Shown here: one piece after another, positions 16,653 to 35,305 of the stretch
Layout of the letters: every line of letters begins with the position of its first letter
Position numbering within the stretch: the stretch's first letter is position 1
Assembly: GCF_014652575.1 (NCBI RefSeq)
Contig: NZ_BMZB01000001.1
Span: 186,001 to 250,000 of the forward strand
Length of the DNA: 64,000 nt
Origin: Asticcacaulis endophyticus
Lineage (GTDB): Bacteria; Pseudomonadota; Alphaproteobacteria; Caulobacterales; Caulobacteraceae
Direction: 5' to 3'
Made by a program: the position numbers and the translations under genes
Notes under the pieces: model-generated
The model's database searches: none
Told to the model about the DNA's origin: nothing
Seen by the model: the letters and a program-made list of their open reading frames with translations, nothing else

Positions 16653-19600
16653 CTATTGCATGCGGTAGGTGACACCGAAGGAGAAGGTACGACCACCATA
16701 GTTCAGGTTATGAACCGTAGGCGTCCCGTCTGCAAAGGTACGATCAGCACCGTTTGAGGTCGTTGTGCCTTGCTTAGTCAGGTTACGGCCCTCGACATAG
16801 AATTCTACGTTCGGGCGGAACTTGTGGGTGATCTTGGCATCAACATACTTAGTCTCATCCTGCCAGACGGCATTACCCGGCTGATAAGGCGCAGGACGGG
16901 CATCAAAACCAATCTCGCTCGGATAATTGTTCCGGCCGTTACTACCGCAAGATTCAATACAGATGAAATACTCACCACGCGCCTGATAGGTGATGCGGGC
17001 ATTGGTTTTACCGTCATCATACCACAGCGACAGGTTTGCAAAATAATCTGACTCTCGCTGCGGCGGCATGACCTCACCCGTGTTTGGGTTGATGATATTG
17101 GTCGCACCTTTGGACTCTAGCTTGGAATAGTTGAAGTCCGCACCAGTGTAACGGAAATACCAAGGCAGGAAGGTAAATGCCGTTTTAGAGGTAAACTCCC
17201 AACCTGTACGTTCAATACCCGGAGCATTTTCATACGTCGGATACGTAAATTCCAGATCAGCCAAAGCCTGCCCCGTAACAGGGTCGACATAGTCAGAACC
17301 GGCAAACAACTTGCCTGTGGCGCTGGTCCCAACGACATTACCGATAAGGACATCAAGCTTATGGGTGGCCAGAGAGAGCATGGTGTCACGGTTAGGATAC
17401 CATTCCACACTCAAGTTCTGGTCCCAGGCCGTATACGGCTTCAACTCAGGGTTACCTACCCGCACGCTACATGAGTTGTCGCCGTCAAAACCGATGACAT
17501 CCAATTCACGGCGCTCATCGACGGTGCAGGTACCGGCCGGTAACATGAAGTTAACGCCAGGACGTGAAATCGTCTTGCCCTTGTAATAGCGGACGACGAC
17601 TTGATCCGGCACAACCCATACACCGACGTTGTATGTCGGCAAATAATCGCGGGTGGTACGCGTAAATTCAACCTGTTGCGTATAGCTTGTGGTTACAATG
17701 CCCGCTGCCGCAGTCGGGTTAAGCGGATCAAATGCCGCTGTCGTACGGACTGATTGCAGGGTGAAGGCTCCCTGACCCGTGGCTTCGGTTTCAACCGCTC
17801 GCAGACCAAAGTTACCAATCAGTTCCATACCAAGTGGCAGAGGCTGTTCAAACTCTGCCATATAGTAGGCCGCAGTAATCTTTTCGTCATAGCCTTGGAA
17901 GAACTGATCATACACCTTGCCATCGCTGGCAACACAACTCTTCATACAATCGAAGTTATAGTTCTGGGCCGAGGGCACAAGGCTGACCAGCTTTTCAACG
18001 TCAATGCCCTGCCAGTTCTCCATATTCTCAGCGCCTTCGTAACCATTGAAGAAATTGGAATCTGGCTGTGAAATGGTTGCTGCAATCAGAGCCTGCATTT
18101 CGGCAGGGGTGTATGTCGTCACGCCCGTCAGAGCGTTAAACATATTCGTGGCAGGCACATAACCATAGTTACAGGACTCAATCGACGTTGCCGTTGGCTG
18201 ACAAGCACGGAACGATCCGCGCATCAAGGTAGACGGCAAAACAACCGCCGGAATATAGTTAGGATTAACAGTACCATTCGTATTCAGATAGGTACCAACG
18301 GCGTTTGAGATTGTACGACCGCCCGGACGCGACCAAGCCTTACCTTGTGGATTACGCTGGCTCAAACCGATCTTGATAGCGCTGAAGAATGGCAATTTAT
18401 CTTCAAGATTATAGGTAACATCTATCTTTGCGGTGGTTTCAGTAGATTCCCCAATCCAAGCGTCAAAGTTCAAAGCAAAGCTGTTTGACACCAGAGGACG
18501 TTGCGCAACAGTAGTTACCGGAACGCCTGCTGGCACTTCATACGTAGGAGCCACAGCCGTCGTAATTGCCGCCTGAGAGTTCAATTGAACATAGTTGGCC
18601 GGATTGGTTTCGTCGTAGTTGCCCAATATCTCATGCGACCACAAACCACTGGGCTGCACAAAGAAGCGCGCCGCACCATAATTGAAGGAGCGGTTTGTCG
18701 AGATATTGAAGCGTTTATAATCGGCTTCAGACTTACCGACCATAAAATCAATCTTCAAAGGCCCGCTATTATAATTGCCTCCAAACTGGGCAAATGTATT
18801 TGTTGTGTCGAACGGCTCCCACGACTGAGTAATGTTCGAACTGGCATCTGTCAGCACATATTCTGTAACAAAGTGATTTTCATCAACTTTTACAGAGGAC
18901 GGATCAATACCGACTACGTTCCCAATTGCCGGGTTATTGTTGTAGATACCAACGCCATCATAGAGGAAATACTTCCCAGCAGCCGTCGGTGAAACGACCC
19001 GTTGTTGGTATGGTGAACCGGCTGCAATATTCCACACGCCGTTAGGATTGCCCGCTGTCGTATAAATATTGCCGGGGTTAATCGGTGTTTCTTGCCCGCC
19101 CTGAAGGCTACGCCAGCGATACTGGCGGTCAACTTCGCGCGTTGATTTGTTATATTTGGCAAATACGGTAAAATTATCGCTGATTTTGTAATCAAAGCGA
19201 ATGTCAGCAGAGAAACGCTCATCTAGCTGCGTATTATCGTAGCTGCGAACCAAATTCGGCTCAAGATCGTTCCATTGATTTAGACAAGTCTGAAGTTCGT
19301 AAACGCGCTGGTTCTTCACGGCAGCGGTACCCGTCGTCAATAGCGGAAACGCCGTGCTACAAGCGGCTTTGGTTTGCGCCGAAGCTGATCTTTCGACAAT
19401 TTGACGCGGTGTAAAACTTGAATTGGCTAGCAGCGTATCCGGGCTCAAAGTTGCACCAACGCCTGTGCCACCCACGGTCGAGGGGTTGAACTCAAACGTC
19501 TTTTCCGCAGAACCATCGAAATCAAGGCGCCCCAGATATCCGGTATTGTTAGCCGATGTCCCCTGAGAACTGGAATTGTTCTGATAATTACTCCCTGTGA

Positions 19601-20321
19601 GGCTCAAGACAACACCGAGGCGATCATTCAGGAACTTACGCGAAGCCACCAGATTATAATCCGGCTTCCACTGCTCCCCCAGCGAGTTGCGGCGTGCACC
19701 GACGCGAAGCGACAGATAAGGCTTTTTGAAATCAAGCCCTGTACGGGTTTGAATTTTAACACCACCGCCAAGTGACCCTTCGGTCATGTCAGCGGTAGAT
19801 CCTTTGATCACATCTACACTTTTAATAAGATCGGATGGCAGCGCCACCATATCAGCTCCGCGTGCGTTTTGAGTGCCGCTCAAGGCAAAGCTGGCGTTAC
19901 TGACCCCCATGCCGTCCAGTTCAACGCGCGTCTGCTCTGCGGTGTTACCACGGATATCGATTCCACTACCTTCACCGAATTCGTCACGCTGCAGCGCGAC
20001 GCCAGCGACACGCGAAATCGCTTCGTTCAGGTTTTTGTCAGGGAAGGCGCCGACATCGTCTGCGACAATAGAGTCCATTGCCGTCTTGGCGCGCTTTTTA
20101 CGGTCGTTAGATGACTGCTGGGCGGCGCGGGCGCCGACGACGACGACTTCCTGGATATCCTCATCGGCAGCGGCGGCGACCGGAGCACCGGCCTGGCTGG
20201 ACGATACAATCGCGTCCTGAGCCATGGCCGTGCCTGAGAACGCCATCATGGAAATAAGCGTCATCGCCGTTCCCTGTTGCAGGGCTTTGGAGAATGACCG
20301 GTTACGGTTGCGGGTTAACAT
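16653..20321 (-). CDS. TonB-dependent outer membrane receptor, probably for pectic oligosaccharides
   Basis: A 1222-residue TonB-dependent receptor. It has a signal peptide ending TAMAQ, an acidic stretch with the TonB-box-like segment EVVVVGAR, a plug domain (SRVAGVALQRDEFGEG, then the GSTADMTEGSLGG region) and a large beta-barrel ending in GVTYRMQ with the typical aromatic-rich final strand. It would import large glycan fragments across the outer membrane using TonB energy. The ATG at 20321 is preceded by AGGAGG; a longer frame upstream is not supported. The pectin role is inferred from its position between GH95 and PL11. It belongs to the large Caulobacter/Xanthomonas receptor group. Confidence 0.93.
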   Translation of the reverse strand: MLTRNRNRSFSKALQQGTAMTLISMMAFSGTAMAQDAIVSSSQAGAPVAAAADEDIQEVVVVGARAAQQSSNDRKKRAKTAMDSIVADDVGAFPDKNLNEAISRVAGVALQRDEFGEGSGIDIRGNTAEQTRVELDGMGVSNASFALSGTQNARGADMVALPSDLIKSVDVIKGSTADMTEGSLGGGVKIQTRTGLDFKKPYLSLRVGARRNSLGEQWKPDYNLVASRKFLNDRLGVVLSLTGSNYQNNSSSQGTSANNTGYLGRLDFDGSAEKTFEFNPSTVGGTGVGATLSPDTLLANSSFTPRQIVERSASAQTKAACSTAFPLLTTGTAAVKNQRVYELQTCLNQWNDLEPNLVRSYDNTQLDERFSADIRFDYKISDNFTVFAKYNKSTREVDRQYRWRSLQGGQETPINPGNIYTTAGNPNGVWNIAAGSPYQQRVVSPTAAGKYFLYDGVGIYNNNPAIGNVVGIDPSSVKVDENHFVTEYVLTDASSNITQSWEPFDTTNTFAQFGGNYNSGPLKIDFMVGKSEADYKRFNISTNRSFNYGAARFFVQPSGLWSHEILGNYDETNPANYVQLNSQAAITTAVAPTYEVPAGVPVTTVAQRPLVSNSFALNFDAWIGESTETTAKIDVTYNLEDKLPFFSAIKIGLSQRNPQGKAWSRPGGRTISNAVGTYLNTNGTVNPNYIPAVVLPSTLMRGSFRACQPTATSIESCNYGYVPATNMFNALTGVTTYTPAEMQALIAATISQPDSNFFNGYEGAENMENWQGIDVEKLVSLVPSAQNYNFDCMKSCVASDGKVYDQFFQGYDEKITAAYYMAEFEQPLPLGMELIGNFGLRAVETEATGQGAFTLQSVRTTAAFDPLNPTAAAGIVTTSYTQQVEFTRTTRDYLPTYNVGVWVVPDQVVVRYYKGKTISRPGVNFMLPAGTCTVDERRELDVIGFDGDNSCSVRVGNPELKPYTAWDQNLSVEWYPNRDTMLSLATHKLDVLIGNVVGTSATGKLFAGSDYVDPVTGQALADLEFTYPTYENAPGIERTGWEFTSKTAFTFLPWYFRYTGADFNYSKLESKGATNIINPNTGEVMPPQRESDYFANLSLWYDDGKTNARITYQARGEYFICIESCGSNGRNNYPSEIGFDARPAPYQPGNAVWQDETKYVDAKITHKFRPNVEFYVEGRNLTKQGTTTSNGADRTFADGTPTVHNLNYGGRTFSFGVTYRMQ

Positions 20322-20684
20322 CAAAATAGTCCTCCTGGTGCTGGCTTTTTCAAAGCCCGGCGCCATGTGTCGGCACCTGCCCCAGAGGTTGAAAAGAGAA
20401 TGTAATCCGCACAGGTCAGCGATGCCGCCGCCCGCACATTCATTACTGATGACCGTGAAGTGTCGCTGCCTATGGGGCTGAAACGCAAAACCCGGCTCGG
20501 CATTATCCGAGCGGACGCATTCCTAAAAGCCCTTCCGCAAGCGGACGGTTTCCGGTGTCATCTCCCTTTTATTGGACCGTTAGTCGGTCTCATTTATCAA
20601 CCCCTATGGGATGGCCTAAGCTTTGTTGATTGATTGTGGCAAGTCAAGATACATTTTGATCATTTGCGCCATATTGTCCGTCAA
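20322..20684 (-). promoter_or_regulatory. Long leader and promoter region of the receptor gene
   Basis: About 360 bases upstream of the receptor carry no convincing gene. A TTGACT-like hexamer on the minus strand (20642-20647, read in reverse complement) could be a -35 element, giving a leader of about 300 bases. A GGTC-type inverted repeat (GACCGACTAACGGTC in reverse complement) lies near 20577-20591. The reading is tentative. Confidence 0.35.
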
Positions 20685-20699
20685 ATTGGTCAGATAAGT
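20685..20699. promoter_or_regulatory. Candidate operator half-site ATTGGTCAGATAAGT
   Basis: This shares ATTGGTCA with the palindrome at 13965 and lies upstream of the putative receptor promoter. The second arm is degenerate. A further partial copy (CCATATTGTCC) begins at 20669. Confidence 0.35.
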
Positions 20700-20778
20700 G
20701 AGCCTGCGTTACAAAAAGAACACAATTTTTCTAACAAATCGCCACATTCATGCCCGCTCAGGCAAAGACGTGCACCAT

Positions 20779-20793: not shown

Positions 20794-20937
20794 GAATCGT
20801 CGCACCCTTCGATATTACGAACTCGCCTTAACCAAACTATTGAATAATATGAAACTAATATCCACGACGCAAAAATCTGACATTTTGAAGCGTCTGAAAC
20901 ATGATAGCGCTAACAAAATGAACCCGGAAAATCGATT

Positions 20938-20968
20938 TTGATTACTATTGCGCAATACAGATTATTAT
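20938..20968 (+). promoter_or_regulatory. Candidate promoter of the structured RNA
   Basis: TTGATT (20938-20943) is followed after 17-19 bases by ATTATTAT, which resembles a -35/-10 pair in an AT-rich stretch. It would start transcription near 20975, just before the run of hairpins. Inferred from spacing only. Confidence 0.35.
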
Positions 20969-20974
20969 CGTACT

Positions 20975-21159
20975 AATTTGCGCAGCATGACTCTTGGTGT
21001 TCATTTCAAGCGTTTTGTCGGCCACGCTTCCAGGTGATTATGACGTGCTTTGCCGTCATGATCGCGGAGGCAACCTTCCCGAAATAGCTTCAGGCCGCGT
21101 CCCGAAGCTATTGACTGACAACGGTGACAGCCATTCCCTTGGCTCTCACCGTTTTTTTT
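20975..21159 (+). ncRNA. Candidate structured small RNA with its own terminator
   Basis: No plausible protein is encoded here, yet four hairpins follow one another. Stem 1 is AAGCGT/ACGCTT (21008-21029), stem 2 ATGACG/CGTCAT (21040-21059), stem 3 AATAGCTTC/GAAGCTATT (21083-21112), and stem 4 a 13-bp terminator with one mismatch (21120-21153) ending in a run of eight T's. No upstream plus-strand gene needs this terminator, so it most likely ends a free RNA of about 180 nucleotides or a leader that attenuates the PL11 gene 170 bases downstream. I do not recognise a known RNA family. The 5' end is a guess. Confidence 0.5.
21120..21159 (+). terminator. Strong intrinsic terminator upstream of the PL11 gene
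   Basis: Arms AACGGTGAcAGCCA and TGGCTcTCACCGTT pair over 13 bp with a single C-C mismatch; the stem runs into eight consecutive T's. It lies 169 bases before the PL11 start codon in the same orientation. Confidence 0.9.
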
Positions 21160-21327
21160 GCCTTGCGCGCCACGCTATGATTGATATCGCGCACGATCGA
21201 TCAAATTGCGCTTGTCTCGCTCATTACAAAGGCGTAGCCTCCGCCGATAAAATAAAAGGCACCCCGGTTTAACCGATCCGGCAGGGCCAGCCTTTCACGG
21301 GGAAACTGAATTCAAGGATATAATCAG

Positions 21328-23292
21328 ATGCATGATCTGAAACTTTACCTTCGCCGCTCAGGGGCGATTCTGCCGGCACTCGCCGCACTCGCCATGTCAA
21401 CGGTCGCACTGGCGCAAACGGGCCCGCGCCATATGGAAGCCATCGACCGCGGCGTGGTCGCTGTTCCGGCCACCAATGGCGTGCTGGTTAGCTGGCGCCT
21501 GCTGGGCAATGATGCGGATAAGACGACCTTTAATCTCTATCGCGACGGTAAGAAAATCACGCCAAAGCCCATCAGCGCGACGAATTTCGCAGACGCTAAG
21601 GGTAGCGCGACATCCATCTATAAAGTCGCAGCAATCACGGGTGGCAAGGCAACCGGCACCTCAGCCGATGCGCGCGTGTGGGCAGAGGGCTACCTCAACA
21701 TTCCGCTGAACAAGCCCGCTGACGGCACCACGCCGGATGGCCAAACCTATAGCTACAATGCCAATGACGCTTCGGCCGGAGATCTTGATGGTGACGGTCG
21801 TTATGAGATCATCCTGAAGTGGGACCCCAGCAATTCCAAGGACAATTCCCAGGGCGGCTATACCGGCAATGTCTTTATCGATGCCTATACGCTTGACGGC
21901 AAACAGCTTTGGCGCATCGATCTGGGCCGCAATATCCGCGCCGGCGCCCACTACACCCAGTTTCAGGTGGCCGACTATGATGGTGACGGCAAGGCCGAAC
22001 TGATCGTCAAAACCGCCGATGGCACCAAAGACGCTCAGGGCAAGGTCATCGGCGATGCGAATGCCAATTGGGTAGAAGGTGATGGCGAGGTCGCTCAGAA
22101 CGATCGCACCGGCTCCGTCGTCGCACCCGACGGTAAATTGATGGCGCAATTTAAAGGCCGCATCCTTAAGGGGCCGGAATATTTAAGCGTCTTCGAGGGC
22201 GCCACCGGGCGTGTGCTCGATACTGTCGATTTTGCCAATACACGCGGCACGACCGGGCCGGACGCCACCCCGGAAGAACAAAAAGCCCGCTGGGGCGACG
22301 CCTACGGCAACCGGTCGGAGCGCTATCTGGCCGGTACAGCCTGGCTGGACGGTGTGCATCCGTCAGTGGTTATGGCGCGGGGCTATTACGCCCGCACAAC
22401 CCTGTCGGCCTATGATTTCCGCGATGGTAAGCTGACCAAGCGCTGGTACTTTGATTCCGAAGCTGATGGCGCGCCGGACGGCTATTCGCATCAGGGCAAC
22501 CACCAGTTCTCGGTCGCTGACGTCGATGGCGACGGTAAGGATGAAGTCATCTATGGCTCCATGACGTTGGATGATGACGGCAAGCCCCTGTGGAGCGCCA
22601 AACTCGGTCACGGCGACGCCATGCATGTCTCCGATCTTGATCCATCCCGCCCAGGTTTTGAGAAATTTGGCGTGCATGAAAGCATGCGCGACAGCGGCAA
22701 CCGCGGCTCAGCCATGCTGGATGCCAAAACGGGTGAAATGCTGTGGTCGACTCCGGCCGACAAGGATACCGGGCGCGGCGTCTCCGCAGATATTGACCCG
22801 CGCCATCTGGGGGCAGAATCATGGGCCTCTAACTCGTCCAACCTCTATAATGCCAAGGGCGAGATAATCTCGGACAAGCGCCCGCGTTCGATGAACTTTG
22901 CGATCTGGTGGGACGGCGATCTGACCCGCGAACTGCTGGATGGCAATAAGATATTTAAATGGGACTGGAAGACGGGCGATTCACCCGTCATTTTTGAGAT
23001 GACGGACACCACCTCCAACAATGGCACCAAGTCCAATCCGGCGCTGCAGGCCGACATACTCGGTGACTGGCGTGAAGAGGTCATTATGCGCACCACCGAC
23101 AATACAGCCTTACGCATCTATTCGACCAATATTCCAACGACCTACAGCTTTACCACCCTGATGCACGATCCGGTTTACCGGGCGGGCATCGCCTGGCAGA
23201 ACACGGCCTATAACCAGCCGCCGCATGTCAGCTACTATCTGGGTGAAGGTATGAAAACCCCGCCCAAAGCCAATATTAAAATCGGCAAATAG
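21328..23292 (+). CDS. Rhamnogalacturonan lyase, PL11 family
   Basis: A 654-residue PL11 lyase resembling the YesW/RhgW type, which cuts RG-I between rhamnose and galacturonic acid by beta-elimination. The N-terminal export signal ends VALAQ. The family's calcium-rich beta-propeller shows as DLDGDGRYE (about 152-160), DYDGDGKAEL (216-225) and DVDGDGKDEV, with NHQFSVAD and WREEVIMRT further on. It acts in the periplasm or at the surface. The ribosome site AAGGAT is modest. The 170-base leader follows a strong terminator, so attenuation is possible. Endo versus exo action is not decided by sequence. Confidence 0.92.
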   Translation: MHDLKLYLRRSGAILPALAALAMSTVALAQTGPRHMEAIDRGVVAVPATNGVLVSWRLLGNDADKTTFNLYRDGKKITPKPISATNFADAKGSATSIYKVAAITGGKATGTSADARVWAEGYLNIPLNKPADGTTPDGQTYSYNANDASAGDLDGDGRYEIILKWDPSNSKDNSQGGYTGNVFIDAYTLDGKQLWRIDLGRNIRAGAHYTQFQVADYDGDGKAELIVKTADGTKDAQGKVIGDANANWVEGDGEVAQNDRTGSVVAPDGKLMAQFKGRILKGPEYLSVFEGATGRVLDTVDFANTRGTTGPDATPEEQKARWGDAYGNRSERYLAGTAWLDGVHPSVVMARGYYARTTLSAYDFRDGKLTKRWYFDSEADGAPDGYSHQGNHQFSVADVDGDGKDEVIYGSMTLDDDGKPLWSAKLGHGDAMHVSDLDPSRPGFEKFGVHESMRDSGNRGSAMLDAKTGEMLWSTPADKDTGRGVSADIDPRHLGAESWASNSSNLYNAKGEIISDKRPRSMNFAIWWDGDLTRELLDGNKIFKWDWKTGDSPVIFEMTDTTSNNGTKSNPALQADILGDWREEVIMRTTDNTALRIYSTNIPTTYSFTTLMHDPVYRAGIAWQNTAYNQPPHVSYYLGEGMKTPPKANIKIGK

Positions 23293-28551: not shown

Positions 28552-28698
28552 GTCTCATATTGTGAACAGACATTCGACAAGCGCGAAAAACCTGTTTAAT
28601 ATAAACAATCATCTTTAATCATGATTCCCGTCCGTGTCAGGACACACAGGCTTTGCGTCGCCGTTCGGGACAATAAAAACCAAGGGGACGGACCGTAC

Positions 28699-29520
28699 AT
28701 GCATTTTCAGGATCGCTGGAAACTGATCATTGATGAGCTTAATCATGACCGGGTCACCTCTGTCGATGAACTGACCGCCAAGCTGGGGGCGTCACCCGCC
28801 ACCATCCGTCGCGATCTGAACGAACTGCATGAACTGGGGCATTTGCTGCGCGTCCGTGGCGGAGCCATGCGCATTGAAGGCGCCCATATCGGGCTTAAAG
28901 TCACCAGCGACGACCGCCGCAACAGCCTGACCGGTCAGGCGCCGTTTTTCGAGAGCGTCATCCACTACGCCCCCGCCAAAAAAGCCATTGCGCGCGCCGC
29001 CCTTGACCTGCTCAAGCCCGGCATGTCGATGATTATCGACGGCGGAACGACCACCTATATGCTGGCCTCGATCATGCCGAACGACAGCTATAATGTGCTG
29101 ACAACCTCGATCCCGATCCTGCAAAGCCTGCTGGATCGCACGCGCATTCGGGTTACCCTGCCCGGCGGGGAACTGTTCCGTGAGCAGCGCATAATCCTCA
29201 ACCCCTATGAAGACGGTATGCTGCAAAATTTTGCGGCTCAGCGCATGTTTATCGGCGCGCAGGCGATCACGCCCAACGGCCTGATGCAGACCGATACCTT
29301 GCTGGTGCAATCTGAACGCCGCCTGATCGAGCGCGCCCAGCAGGTCGTCGTGCTGGCTGACTCGTCAAAGATCAATGCACCCGCGTCATTGTCGGTGTGC
29401 CCACTGACCGAGATCGATATTCTGATTACCGATTCCGGCCTCAGCACCCGCGACAAGCTATGGCTTGAAGATGCCGGTATCGATGTCCGCGTCGTCGATA
29501 TCCTGGCCGAAGATCAATAA
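28699..29520 (+). CDS. DeoR-family regulator of rhamnose genes
   Basis: A 273-residue DeoR-type repressor with an N-terminal helix-turn-helix (RVTSVDELTAKLGASPATIRRDL at about residues 18-40) and a sugar-phosphate sensing domain with the DGGTTTYMLA motif. The ATG at 28699 has a clear ribosome site AAGGGGA; an in-frame ATG 78 bases upstream lacks one. It probably senses a rhamnose metabolite and controls rhaI, rhaK and CE12-rhaM. It lies directly downstream of rhaK. Confidence 0.88.
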   Translation: MHFQDRWKLIIDELNHDRVTSVDELTAKLGASPATIRRDLNELHELGHLLRVRGGAMRIEGAHIGLKVTSDDRRNSLTGQAPFFESVIHYAPAKKAIARAALDLLKPGMSMIIDGGTTTYMLASIMPNDSYNVLTTSIPILQSLLDRTRIRVTLPGGELFREQRIILNPYEDGMLQNFAAQRMFIGAQAITPNGLMQTDTLLVQSERRLIERAQQVVVLADSSKINAPASLSVCPLTEIDILITDSGLSTRDKLWLEDAGIDVRVVDILAEDQ

Positions 29521-31408: not shown

Positions 31409-34400
31409 ATGCCCTACCCTAAGTCGCTGCGCAAACGTGCAGCCCTTTCGCGTGTTTCGCAAATCGGCCTGCTGACGGCGCTTATGGGAACGCTGGCCTT
31501 TGGGTCATTTGCGCAGGAACTGGGCATCCCACAGGCATCCGATGCCCAAAAAGCTGCGGCTCAGAATGCCGCCCAAAATGCCGTAAAAGACGCACCCGTC
31601 TTTATAATGTCGAGCTTCATGGCGACGTCTCAGAACACGCTCAGCCTGTTTACCTCGCCCGACGGCATCACCTTCAATACGCTGGCGTCCGAGGTCTATA
31701 CCCCTGAAAAACGCCTGCTGCGTGACCCGTCGATCATTCGTCATTCGGACGGCTATTATTACATCGTCTATACGACCGACTGGAACGGCTCTGATTTCGG
31801 AATCGCCCGCTCGAAAGACCTGCGCGACTGGCAACTGGTGCGCGAGGTAAAAATCACTCTGCCGGGCACCACCAATACCTGGGCGCCGGAATGGTTCCGC
31901 GACAAGAACGGCGCGCTGAAAGTGGTCGTCTCCCTGTCAAAAGGCGGCACCAAAGGCCCGTTCGGGGCCTATGTGATCGAACCCAATTCTGATTTCTCGC
32001 AATGGTCCGACCCTAAGCCGATGGCGGGCCTGCAAGGCAATTTTATAGACACCTTTGTGGTCTCGACCGACGGCGGCTACACCGCTTTTGTCAAGAACGA
32101 GACGACCAAGTTTATCGAACTGGCGACCTCGAAATCCCTGCTGGGGCCGTGGAAGCTGGAAAAGACCGGCGACTGGGCCGGATGGGGAAGCTGGCGCGAA
32201 GGTCAGGCGCTGGTGAAGCTGCCAAATGGTGGTTACCGCATCTATTTCGACGACTACATCACCAAGCACTATTGGTATTCAGACAGCCTTGACGGCTTCA
32301 AGACCTGGACGCCGAAAAAAGAAATCGGCGGCGTGTCGGGCGTTGTGCGCCACTTTACCGTCCTGTCCGAAGACCCCAAAGCCTTCACTGAGGCCACCAA
32401 GCCCAAAGGTACGCCTCAGAAAATCACCTGGGATAAAAACTCCCTGATGGTCGATGGTGAGCGCATCATGGTCTGGTCCGGCGAAATCCATCCGTTCCGC
32501 CTGCCCAACCCGTCCTTGTGGCGCGATGTGATCCAAAAGATGAAGGCGTCAGGCTTTAACGGCGTCGCTTTTTACTTCGACTGGGGCTACCACTCGCCGT
32601 CACCGGGCGTCTATGATTTCTCGAACGTGCGTAACGTAGAGCGCGCGCTCGAGATCGCCAAGGAAGAGGGCATGTATGTCATTGCCCGCACCGGCCCCTA
32701 TGTGAACGCCGAACTGACCGGCGGCGGCTATCCCGGCTGGATGCTGCGCCAACGCGCCGAAGCCCGCACCGATGATCCGCTTTATCTGGCCGCCACCGAT
32801 GAGTGGATGACCCAGATCAACGCCATTATCGCCCGCCATCAGCTCACTACGGGCGGCGGCACGGTCATCGCCTATCAGCTAGAGAACGAACTCGGCAAGG
32901 TCGAGCCGAAGCACGTCCGTCAGATGGAGCATCTGGCGAAAAAGGCGCGCGCCGATGGCATCACCGTGCCGTTCTTCCATAATTCGGCGGGTCGTCTGCC
33001 TGACTGGACACCCAAGGATTCGACCGCACCGTGGGCCAATCCGGGGCCAACCGACATCTACGCCTTTGACGGCTATCCCGGCGGCACCTGTAATGTCCAT
33101 GCCGACGCGTCCGGCCCCAACAAGGCCCCCGACTGGGGCATGTACGGCACAACGGCACCTAAGATCGGTGCCCTGTCGTCGCCCAAGACGCCGGGTTTTG
33201 CGGCGGAACTAGGCGGTGGCTGGTTCGATTACTGGGGCTCAAACGGCACCTATGACTGCACGTCGCAGCGTCAGGGCAAGGGCTATCAGCGGGTATTTTA
33301 TGGCACCAACCTGATCAACGGCATTTCGATCCACAACGTCTATATGACGTTCGGCGGCACGTCGTGGGGCTGGCTGGCCGGGCCGGTGGTCTATACCTCT
33401 TACGACTATGGCGCGGCTATTTCCGAAGACCGGGGTTTGCGCGAAAAAGCCTACGCGCTAAAGCAACAGGGCATGTTCGTCCAGGCGACTGAGGCCGTGA
33501 TGGCCGAGATGGACAAGGGGCCAGTGCTTAAGGTCTCCAACGACAAGATCAAGGTCTATCACAACGTCAATCCGACGCTGAAGACGCATATCCTGTTTGC
33601 CGTGCATAATCCGTCGGATGCCATCACCGATGATCGCGGCACGTTTGACGTGACCACCAAGGACGGCACCTATAAGATCCCGGTGCGCGTCAATGGCCAG
33701 GACGCCAAGATGCTGCTGGCATCCTATGCGATGGAGCGTCAGCATCTGGTCTATTCCAACTCCGAAATCCAGACTCATTTCCAGAACGGTGAGCAGGACA
33801 TCGCCCTGCTGCATGGCCGCAACCGTGAGGACGGCGAAACGGTTCTGCGCTATACCTCTGCACCAAAGGTCGAAGTGTTGTCGGGTAAGGTCACCTCGAA
33901 ATTCGATGCTCGCAAAGGCGATGTTAAGCTTAACTACACTCATGATGGCCTGACGCGTGTGCGCATTTCCGGCGGCGGGCGCGCCCCGCTGCTGCTGCTG
34001 ATTGCCGATGAGACGACCAGCTTTAACATGTGGCGTCAGGACACCGCACAGGGCACTGTGCTACAACACACGCCTGCCCTTGTGCGCACCGCGAAAATCG
34101 AGAATGGTACGCTCAACCTGACCGGCGACACCACGGCTGACAGCGCCTTTGAAATCTGGGGCCCTGCTGTCAGCGCCGCCACCTTCAATGGCGAGGCCCT
34201 GACCCTGACGGCGCAACCTGATGGCAGCTATAAGACCTCAAGCGTGCGTGGCCCCGATACGATCACCTTGCCCGATTTGGCCACGCTGGAATGGACTCGC
34301 CGTGCCGATAGCCCCGAAGCCAAACCCGGTTTCGACGACTCAACATGGCTCAAGGCCGACACCCGCCCCTCTGCCGCCCAGACCTGGACGACGCCGGAGC

Positions 34401-35305
34401 GCGGCCAGCCTACGCTTTCCATGAGCGATTACGGCTTCCACCACGGCGATGTCTGGTATCGCGGCCACATCGACATCACCGACACCAAGACCAATCAGCT
34501 TGAACTGTTTTACGGTGCCGGTGGCGCGGGCCTGATTCAGGTCTGGATCGACGGCAAATATATCGGTCAGGACGAAATGGACACAGGTCGTCAGTTCCCC
34601 GAAACCACCGACAGCCTCAAGCTGTCACTCGGTGATCTGACACCGGGTAAGCACGTCGTCTCGGTCATGGTGCGCAACAATTCGCACAACTGGGATCTGA
34701 TGGCTGACGATCAGCACCGTGAAGCTCGTGGCCTGATTTCGGCGTCGCTGACCTCCAAAGGTGGCAACCGCTTTGCTGTGCCGATCGAGTGGCGCATTCA
34801 GGGCAATAAGGGCGGGGAAAAGATCGCTGATCTGGTGCGCGGCCCGATGAACAATGGCGGCCTTTATGGTGAGCGCGAAGGCTGGTACCTGCCCGGCAAA
34901 AAAGCCGATTGGGATAAGGTCAGCCCCACCGCCGCACCGCCAGCGCCCGGCACCTACTGGCTGAGCACGACCTTTAATCTCGATCTGCCCAAGGATCATG
35001 ACGTGCAACTGGGTCTGGCCTTTGGCGATACCACCAAGCCGCGTTCTGACCGCACCAACCGCGCCCTGATCTTCGTCAACGGCTGGAACATGGGGCAGTT
35101 CATCGCCAATATTGGCCCGCAGCGCACCTTTGTTATTCCGCCCGGCATTCTCAACCCCAATGGCGAAAATACCATTAGCTTTGCCGTGACAACCGACGGA
35201 AAAGCTGAGAATGCTCTGGAGCCGGTCAAGCTGGTCAATCTGCGTACCGTCCGTGGCGGTGTGCCGCTGGAGATCATGCCCGCCACTCGTAATCTGCAAC
35301 GCTAA
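31409..35305 (+). CDS. Exported GH43-like and GH35 beta-galactosidase fusion
   Basis: A 1298-residue two-enzyme protein. A signal sequence (cut near GSFAQ) is followed by a GH43-like propeller (about 60-320), with candidate acidic residues Asp106 (LLRDPS), Asp214 (NFIDTF) and Glu264 (WREGQ). Then comes a GH35 barrel (about 338-700) with WSGEIHPFR, acid/base Glu494 (LENELG) and nucleophile Glu600 (AAELGGGWFDYWG), then C-terminal beta domains. GH35 removes terminal beta-galactose. GH43 members cut arabinan, xylan or galactan, so the pair may strip galactan or arabinogalactan branches. The ribosome site is AGAGGAC. It heads an operon with GH105 and the symporter. Confidence 0.85.
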   Translation: MPYPKSLRKRAALSRVSQIGLLTALMGTLAFGSFAQELGIPQASDAQKAAAQNAAQNAVKDAPVFIMSSFMATSQNTLSLFTSPDGITFNTLASEVYTPEKRLLRDPSIIRHSDGYYYIVYTTDWNGSDFGIARSKDLRDWQLVREVKITLPGTTNTWAPEWFRDKNGALKVVVSLSKGGTKGPFGAYVIEPNSDFSQWSDPKPMAGLQGNFIDTFVVSTDGGYTAFVKNETTKFIELATSKSLLGPWKLEKTGDWAGWGSWREGQALVKLPNGGYRIYFDDYITKHYWYSDSLDGFKTWTPKKEIGGVSGVVRHFTVLSEDPKAFTEATKPKGTPQKITWDKNSLMVDGERIMVWSGEIHPFRLPNPSLWRDVIQKMKASGFNGVAFYFDWGYHSPSPGVYDFSNVRNVERALEIAKEEGMYVIARTGPYVNAELTGGGYPGWMLRQRAEARTDDPLYLAATDEWMTQINAIIARHQLTTGGGTVIAYQLENELGKVEPKHVRQMEHLAKKARADGITVPFFHNSAGRLPDWTPKDSTAPWANPGPTDIYAFDGYPGGTCNVHADASGPNKAPDWGMYGTTAPKIGALSSPKTPGFAAELGGGWFDYWGSNGTYDCTSQRQGKGYQRVFYGTNLINGISIHNVYMTFGGTSWGWLAGPVVYTSYDYGAAISEDRGLREKAYALKQQGMFVQATEAVMAEMDKGPVLKVSNDKIKVYHNVNPTLKTHILFAVHNPSDAITDDRGTFDVTTKDGTYKIPVRVNGQDAKMLLASYAMERQHLVYSNSEIQTHFQNGEQDIALLHGRNREDGETVLRYTSAPKVEVLSGKVTSKFDARKGDVKLNYTHDGLTRVRISGGGRAPLLLLIADETTSFNMWRQDTAQGTVLQHTPALVRTAKIENGTLNLTGDTTADSAFEIWGPAVSAATFNGEALTLTAQPDGSYKTSSVRGPDTITLPDLATLEWTRRADSPEAKPGFDDSTWLKADTRPSAAQTWTTPERGQPTLSMSDYGFHHGDVWYRGHIDITDTKTNQLELFYGAGGAGLIQVWIDGKYIGQDEMDTGRQFPETTDSLKLSLGDLTPGKHVVSVMVRNNSHNWDLMADDQHREARGLISASLTSKGGNRFAVPIEWRIQGNKGGEKIADLVRGPMNNGGLYGEREGWYLPGKKADWDKVSPTAAPPAPGTYWLSTTFNLDLPKDHDVQLGLAFGDTTKPRSDRTNRALIFVNGWNMGQFIANIGPQRTFVIPPGILNPNGENTISFAVTTDGKAENALEPVKLVNLRTVRGGVPLEIMPATRNLQR

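Follow-up and report, generated by a model that had tools for sequence, protein, structure and literature searches.

A conserved candidate small RNA between divergent TonB-receptor and PL11 lyase genes in a sub-clade of Asticcacaulis

The 64,000-nucleotide stretch of Asticcacaulis endophyticus DNA that we analyzed (hereafter the window) contains a rhamnogalacturonan/rhamnose utilization locus. A gene for a TonB-dependent receptor (16653-20366, minus strand; TIGR01782), with its likely start codon at 20321 and an AGGAGG site preceding it, diverges from a gene for a PL11 rhamnogalacturonan lyase (21328-23292, plus strand; Pfam RGL11_C, 7e-233). Other products of the locus are a PcRGLX-type protein, GH95, GH2, a PL22-like protein, DUF1961, L-rhamnose isomerase, an FGGY sugar kinase, and a DeoR-family regulator (28621-29520). 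A single protein encoded at 31409-35305 (plus strand) has matches to GH43 as well as to GH35 beta-galactosidase domains and is possibly a fused pectin side-chain enzyme. More distant second copies of PL11 occur in G011 (L139/L142) and G003 (L141/L143), each in two adjoining pieces, representing either a frame interruption or a two-part gene.

The space between the receptor and PL11 genes had been described in the initial annotation as a region of about 1 kb without a convincing gene. This holds except for 20590-20745, where the divergent receptor has its conserved promoter/leader. The receptor promoter and its leader of ~270 nt (20320-20745, minus strand) are almost invariant in our genome and in two relatives, G013 and G008. 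They include GAAAAATTGTGTTCTTTTTGTAACGCA, and a hairpin, GGGCTTTGAAAAAGCC, sits immediately 5' of the ribosome-binding site. The leader may be a regulated one.

Farther toward PL11, the plus strand carries the predicted run of four hairpins ending in a terminator. We assign to it a small RNA of about 188 nt (20972-21159), taking the 5' end from a putative promoter and the 3' end from the terminator. Hairpin H1 with its loop (20985-21018) has 11 pairs with two small interruptions. Its sequence UUCAUUUCAAGCGUUUUG is identical in all five genomes that carry the RNA, and we propose this hairpin as a seed or protein-binding part. Hairpin H2 (21026-21071) has 18 consensus pairs and retains its fold while its sequence has diverged. 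A conserved, pyrimidine-rich linker, AACCUUCCCG (21072-21081), follows, the final three bases of which pair with 21019-21021 in the consensus. Hairpin H3 (21083-21112; AAUAGCUUC...GAAGCUAUU) has 9+2 pairs and shows compensatory changes. The initial stem lengths of 6, 6, and 9 bp were thus too short for H1 and H2. The intrinsic terminator with its T8 spans 21120-21159; its stem (21120-21153) has the 13 bp first reported but is not continuous, consisting of 8+5 pairs that flank one C.C mismatch. The eight T's are present at 21152-21159, although two of them belong to the stem. Only one terminator pair varies among the genomes, from A-U to G-U.

This segment folds far better than expected from its composition. 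The minimum free energy (MFE) of 20969-21165 on the plus strand is -74.1 kcal/mol, compared to -52.5 ± 3.9 kcal/mol for dinucleotide shuffles (z = -5.5; 0/200). The homologues also fold on their own, with MFE z scores of -4.1 (G013) and -5.3 (G008).

A DNA search of 60 relatives found four further copies, all in Asticcacaulis: G012 (99% identity), G003 (98%), G013 (84%), and G008 (73%). In 5/5 genomes, the RNA lies on the same strand as PL11 and ~170 nt upstream of it. Alignment statistics were computed from our sequence, G013, and G008. Because G012 and G003 are nearly identical to ours, the five sequences amount to effectively three independent observations. The consensus energy of the three is -51.3, whereas alignments with shuffled columns give -23.2 ± 3.8 (z = -7.5). 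The signal persists without the terminator (z = -5.6) and in each hairpin separately (H3, -6.1; H1, -3.5; H2, -3.5), and two flanking controls show no such signal (z = +0.2 and -1.5). Both partners have changed in 9 pairs; shuffles give 2.6 ± 1.3 such pairs, and sliding the partners gives 1-3. H2 has seven pairs with changes on both sides. Paired cells make up 95.3% of the total, a share that is 92.5% for shuffles and 37-43% after sliding. Since H1 and the terminator hardly vary, the support for their pairing comes from energy rather than from covariation. The minus-strand consensus is somewhat weaker (alignment z = -6.8), and the terminator is followed by a U-run on the plus strand only. Since several pairs vary via G-U, which is possible only on the plus strand, we take this to be the RNA strand.

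The initial annotation had treated loss of the stems in relatives as evidence against a new small RNA. The stems are instead conserved, and a covariance search for them returns the five Asticcacaulis copies, with compensatory changes present. This conservation and these changes support the candidate as a small RNA, as far as comparison of sequences can. It has two features expected of an intrinsically terminated intergenic bacterial small RNA: its own terminator, made of a stable GC stem and a U-run, and a conserved, structured, non-coding body. A small-protein gene, or hairpins arising by chance, would be a very unlikely explanation. There is a 16-codon frame from 20988, which lacks a clear ribosome-binding site, but G008 has ATA in place of its ATG, and in G013 a 1-nt deletion follows the ATG; folding and covariation are far above chance.

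Conservation across the intergenic region is partitioned. Identity to G013 and G008, respectively, is 55/42% in the upstream stretch, 86/69% in the promoter block (20937-20972), 93/85% in H1, 58/43% in H2, 88/100% in the linker, 88/68% in H3, and 93/93% in the terminator. It falls to 47/20% in the gap at 21161-21175 and rises again in a PL11 operator block (21176-21215; 90/80%) and the PL11 5'UTR (79/71%). On the other side, a diverged stretch separates the small RNA block from the strongly conserved receptor promoter/leader. The region therefore contains three conservation islands, the receptor promoter/5'UTR, the RNA with its promoter, and the PL11 operator/5'UTR, and the diverged gaps set the RNA apart as a separate island between two divergent units.

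As judged from genome searches, the small RNA is restricted to a sub-clade of Asticcacaulis. The covariance model R1 matches our genome at 20970-21160, and DNA, motif, and covariance searches of the genus and of samples of the family (299 genomes) and the order (398) found no sixth copy. Weak covariance matches at L161-L164 were dismissed on inspection as other hairpin sets or coding sequence. Two of these places, L161 1501-1626 and L164 1501-1689 (G019 and G005), hold a three-hairpin element, AATACCAAGAGTCATT...TTCGAGA...CAACGGCCGGA...CGGCCGTTGGTAT, that resembles a further intergenic RNA/DNA element, either structured or repeated. Separately, a palindromic repeat-like element, CTCCCCCTGAGGCAGGGGAGCTTGAAATGAAAC...GTTTCATTTCAAGAGGGGGTT, occurs at ~1480-1540 of both L144 and L145 (our genome and G008) and contains TTTCATTTCAAG, whose letters match those of the H1 loop. 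PL11 itself is found in 19/25 genomes of the genus, and the small RNA with its terminator in only five of these. Congeners without the RNA retain PL11, most of them with a divergent TonB receptor, and a related block directly upstream of PL11 is recognizable in them.

The initial annotation also placed a promoter-like pair just upstream of the hairpins. The pair, TTGATT (20938) and GATTAT (20960) separated by 16 nt (20938-20965, plus strand), does lie in the conserved block 20937-20972, where identity to G008 is 69% compared to 39-42% in upstream neighbors. It is weak, however: only 8/12 hexamer positions match, which is why a generic promoter scan missed it. Overlying its -35 and spacer is an operator-like site on the minus strand, TATTGCGCAATAGTAATCAAA (20937-20957), and a second exact copy, TATCGCGCACGATCGATCAAA (21185-21205, plus strand), lies upstream of PL11. 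Both match the 14-base motif TATNGCGCANNNNNNATCAAA exactly, and these are the only two exact matches in the 3.95-Mb genome, a count that is not an independent test because the motif was derived from those two sites. The small RNA and PL11 are probably co-regulated, given that the exact site is common to both and occurs only twice genome-wide. In G008, the PL11 copy is retained and the RNA-promoter copy is degenerate. Two copies of TATNGCGCANNNNNNATCAAA with a single mismatch exist, one of which closely precedes a GH115 glucuronidase gene (L170 1501-1521; C1:810216-810236 of our genome), inside a long dyad, TTTTGCGCACTTTTGATCAAAAATGCGCGCAAA.

A second kind of site lies farther upstream. The palindrome TGATAGCGCTAACA (20902-20915), which we take to be a LacI-family-like operator, is retained in G013 and absent from G008. 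In G011 and G017, a LacI-like palindrome, TTAGCGCTAA, instead lies ~155 nt upstream of PL11. Its position near PL11 in those genomes and near the RNA here suggests that the RNA was inserted between operator and PL11.

The same arrangement bears on whether the RNA acts freely or as a leader of PL11, alternatives that the initial annotation set side by side. As a leader, it would form the 5' end of the PL11 transcript and terminate conditionally, through attenuation by a ligand, a protein, or factor-dependent antitermination. The shared strand and constant ~170-nt distance in 5/5 genomes fit this idea, as do the strong terminator, the complex, riboswitch-like conserved fold, and the palindrome that precedes PL11 in two congeners and the RNA here. 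However, the terminator arms have no conserved alternative pairing: a search for an antiterminator in the three sequences gave only short, non-equivalent upstream pairings. No riboswitch in Rfam matches, and the interval between the terminator and the PL11 block is not conserved. PL11 also has its own operator/5'UTR block 3' of the terminator. Because congeners without the RNA keep both PL11 and this proximal block, the RNA would be dispensable as a PL11 leader. With the RNA in five genomes only, the PL11-proximal block present elsewhere, and no conserved antiterminator, the comparison favors an independent small RNA gene placed upstream of an existing PL11 promoter, and we consider the leader unlikely.

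A purely local role is less probable still. The RNA, once transcribed, could act locally or passively, its terminator insulating PL11 from transcription that arrives from upstream or transcription itself tuning the divergent promoters. It is located exactly between the TonB-receptor and PL11 promoters, and its terminator is nearly invariant. Yet an insulator has no need of an 18-nt invariant H1 block or of compensatory evolution in H2 and H3, and, as the initial annotation recognized, no plus-strand gene upstream would use the terminator; none there requires termination. Least probable of all is antisense regulation of the TonB receptor in cis, like that of susC by DonS in Bacteroides: the RNA is divergent to such a receptor in a polysaccharide locus, but the receptor mRNA should not overlap it because the conserved promoter/leader block is 20590-20745 and ends 200 nt from the RNA, and trans pairing with the receptor ribosome-binding site is marginal (47/500 shuffles do as well) and absent in G013 and G008.

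Comparison with known RNAs places the element in familiar company. Rfam 15, at gathering and relaxed thresholds, gave no family match to the RNA, the only hit being an irrelevant PtaRNA1 (E = 4.4) outside it, and we did not find it described in the Asticcacaulis literature on small RNAs or rhamnogalacturonan. We regard it as a new family within a familiar kind of RNA, set apart from ChvR and RusT by their descriptions. ChvR of Caulobacter crescentus is encoded upstream of recF/gyrB, is controlled by ChvI-ChvG, and represses chvT (PMC6237742). Compared by description, both are Caulobacteraceae small RNAs of narrow phylogenetic range with several stem-loops, and post-transcriptional control of a TonB receptor is a likeness that for the present RNA is predicted by analogy. 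They differ in that ours lies in a rhamnogalacturonan locus with another operator. RusT, also of C. crescentus, is conserved within Caulobacter and controlled by iron/NtrYX (PMC11005374). By description, it too has four stem-loops, the last a poly-U terminator, but it is 118 nt long rather than about 188 nt and differs in its iron/NtrYX control. Its conserved stem-loop seed and outer-membrane transporter targets are features that we propose for our RNA by analogy. CrfA and the alphaR8 small RNAs SisA-D, from the same bacterial family, control TonB receptors and plant-carbon use (PMC12559287). The single-stranded alphaR8 core of SisA-D, UUUCCUCCCU, is absent from the present RNA, which has the conserved linker AACCUUCCCG instead. 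In Bacteroides, DonS and GibS are tied to polysaccharide utilization (PMC7366714). Like our RNA and the TonB receptor, DonS and a SusC/TonB-type receptor are divergently arranged, but DonS acts as an antisense RNA of its susC, GibS has a largely unstructured 5' end, and both belong to another phylum.

Base-pairing sRNAs of Caulobacter such as ChvR, RusT, and CrfA/SisA mainly affect TonB receptors (PMC6237742, PMC11005374, PMC12559287). By analogy with them, the likeliest mode of action would be base-pairing through the H1 loop/3' arm and the linker. Within the window, complementarity between the RNA and gene starts is at background level, and no target prediction survived comparison across relatives. 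A search weighted by accessibility singled out the ribosome-binding site of the TonB receptor (-7.8 kcal/mol, RNA nt 22-32), a pairing that is lost in relatives. An 11-nt complement spanning the start codon of a PDDEXK_4 gene, seen in our genome and G008, we take to be a coincidence: the gene is absent from G012 and G003, and the complement is absent from G013.

Across relatives, the element keeps its fold with compensatory changes, and its terminator, upstream promoter-like block, and syntenic position are conserved as well. We think it likely that 20972-21159 (plus strand) is a small RNA gene that stands on its own, ends by intrinsic termination, and lies between the promoters of the divergent TonB receptor and PL11, and that its product is co-controlled and trans-acting. 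Transcription would start near 20972, and the operator-like site common to both genes would place it under joint control with PL11. In the mature RNA, the invariant UUCAUUUCAAGCGUUUUG of the H1 loop/3' arm and the linker AACCUUCCCG, which is accessible, would pair in trans, adjusting outer-membrane transporters or competing carbon pathways, and stability would come from H2, H3, and the terminator.

Few alphaproteobacterial small RNAs have been characterized, and the known Caulobacter ones act mostly on TonB receptors and carbon choice. If our interpretation is true, the present RNA by analogy probably fine-tunes other genes during feeding on plant pectin. A more specific scenario, which we offer tentatively, is that a young, clade-specific small RNA emerged within the rhamnogalacturonan locus, came under the lyase gene's operator, and now matches outer-membrane receptors to pectin feeding at the post-transcriptional level; Caulobacterales would then have a glycan locus that contains a small RNA and shares its regulation with it. 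Found in five genomes and missing from the same locus in close congeners, the RNA offers a testable case of small RNA birth, one that would show how such an RNA arises in a glycan-utilization locus and becomes wired into its regulon.
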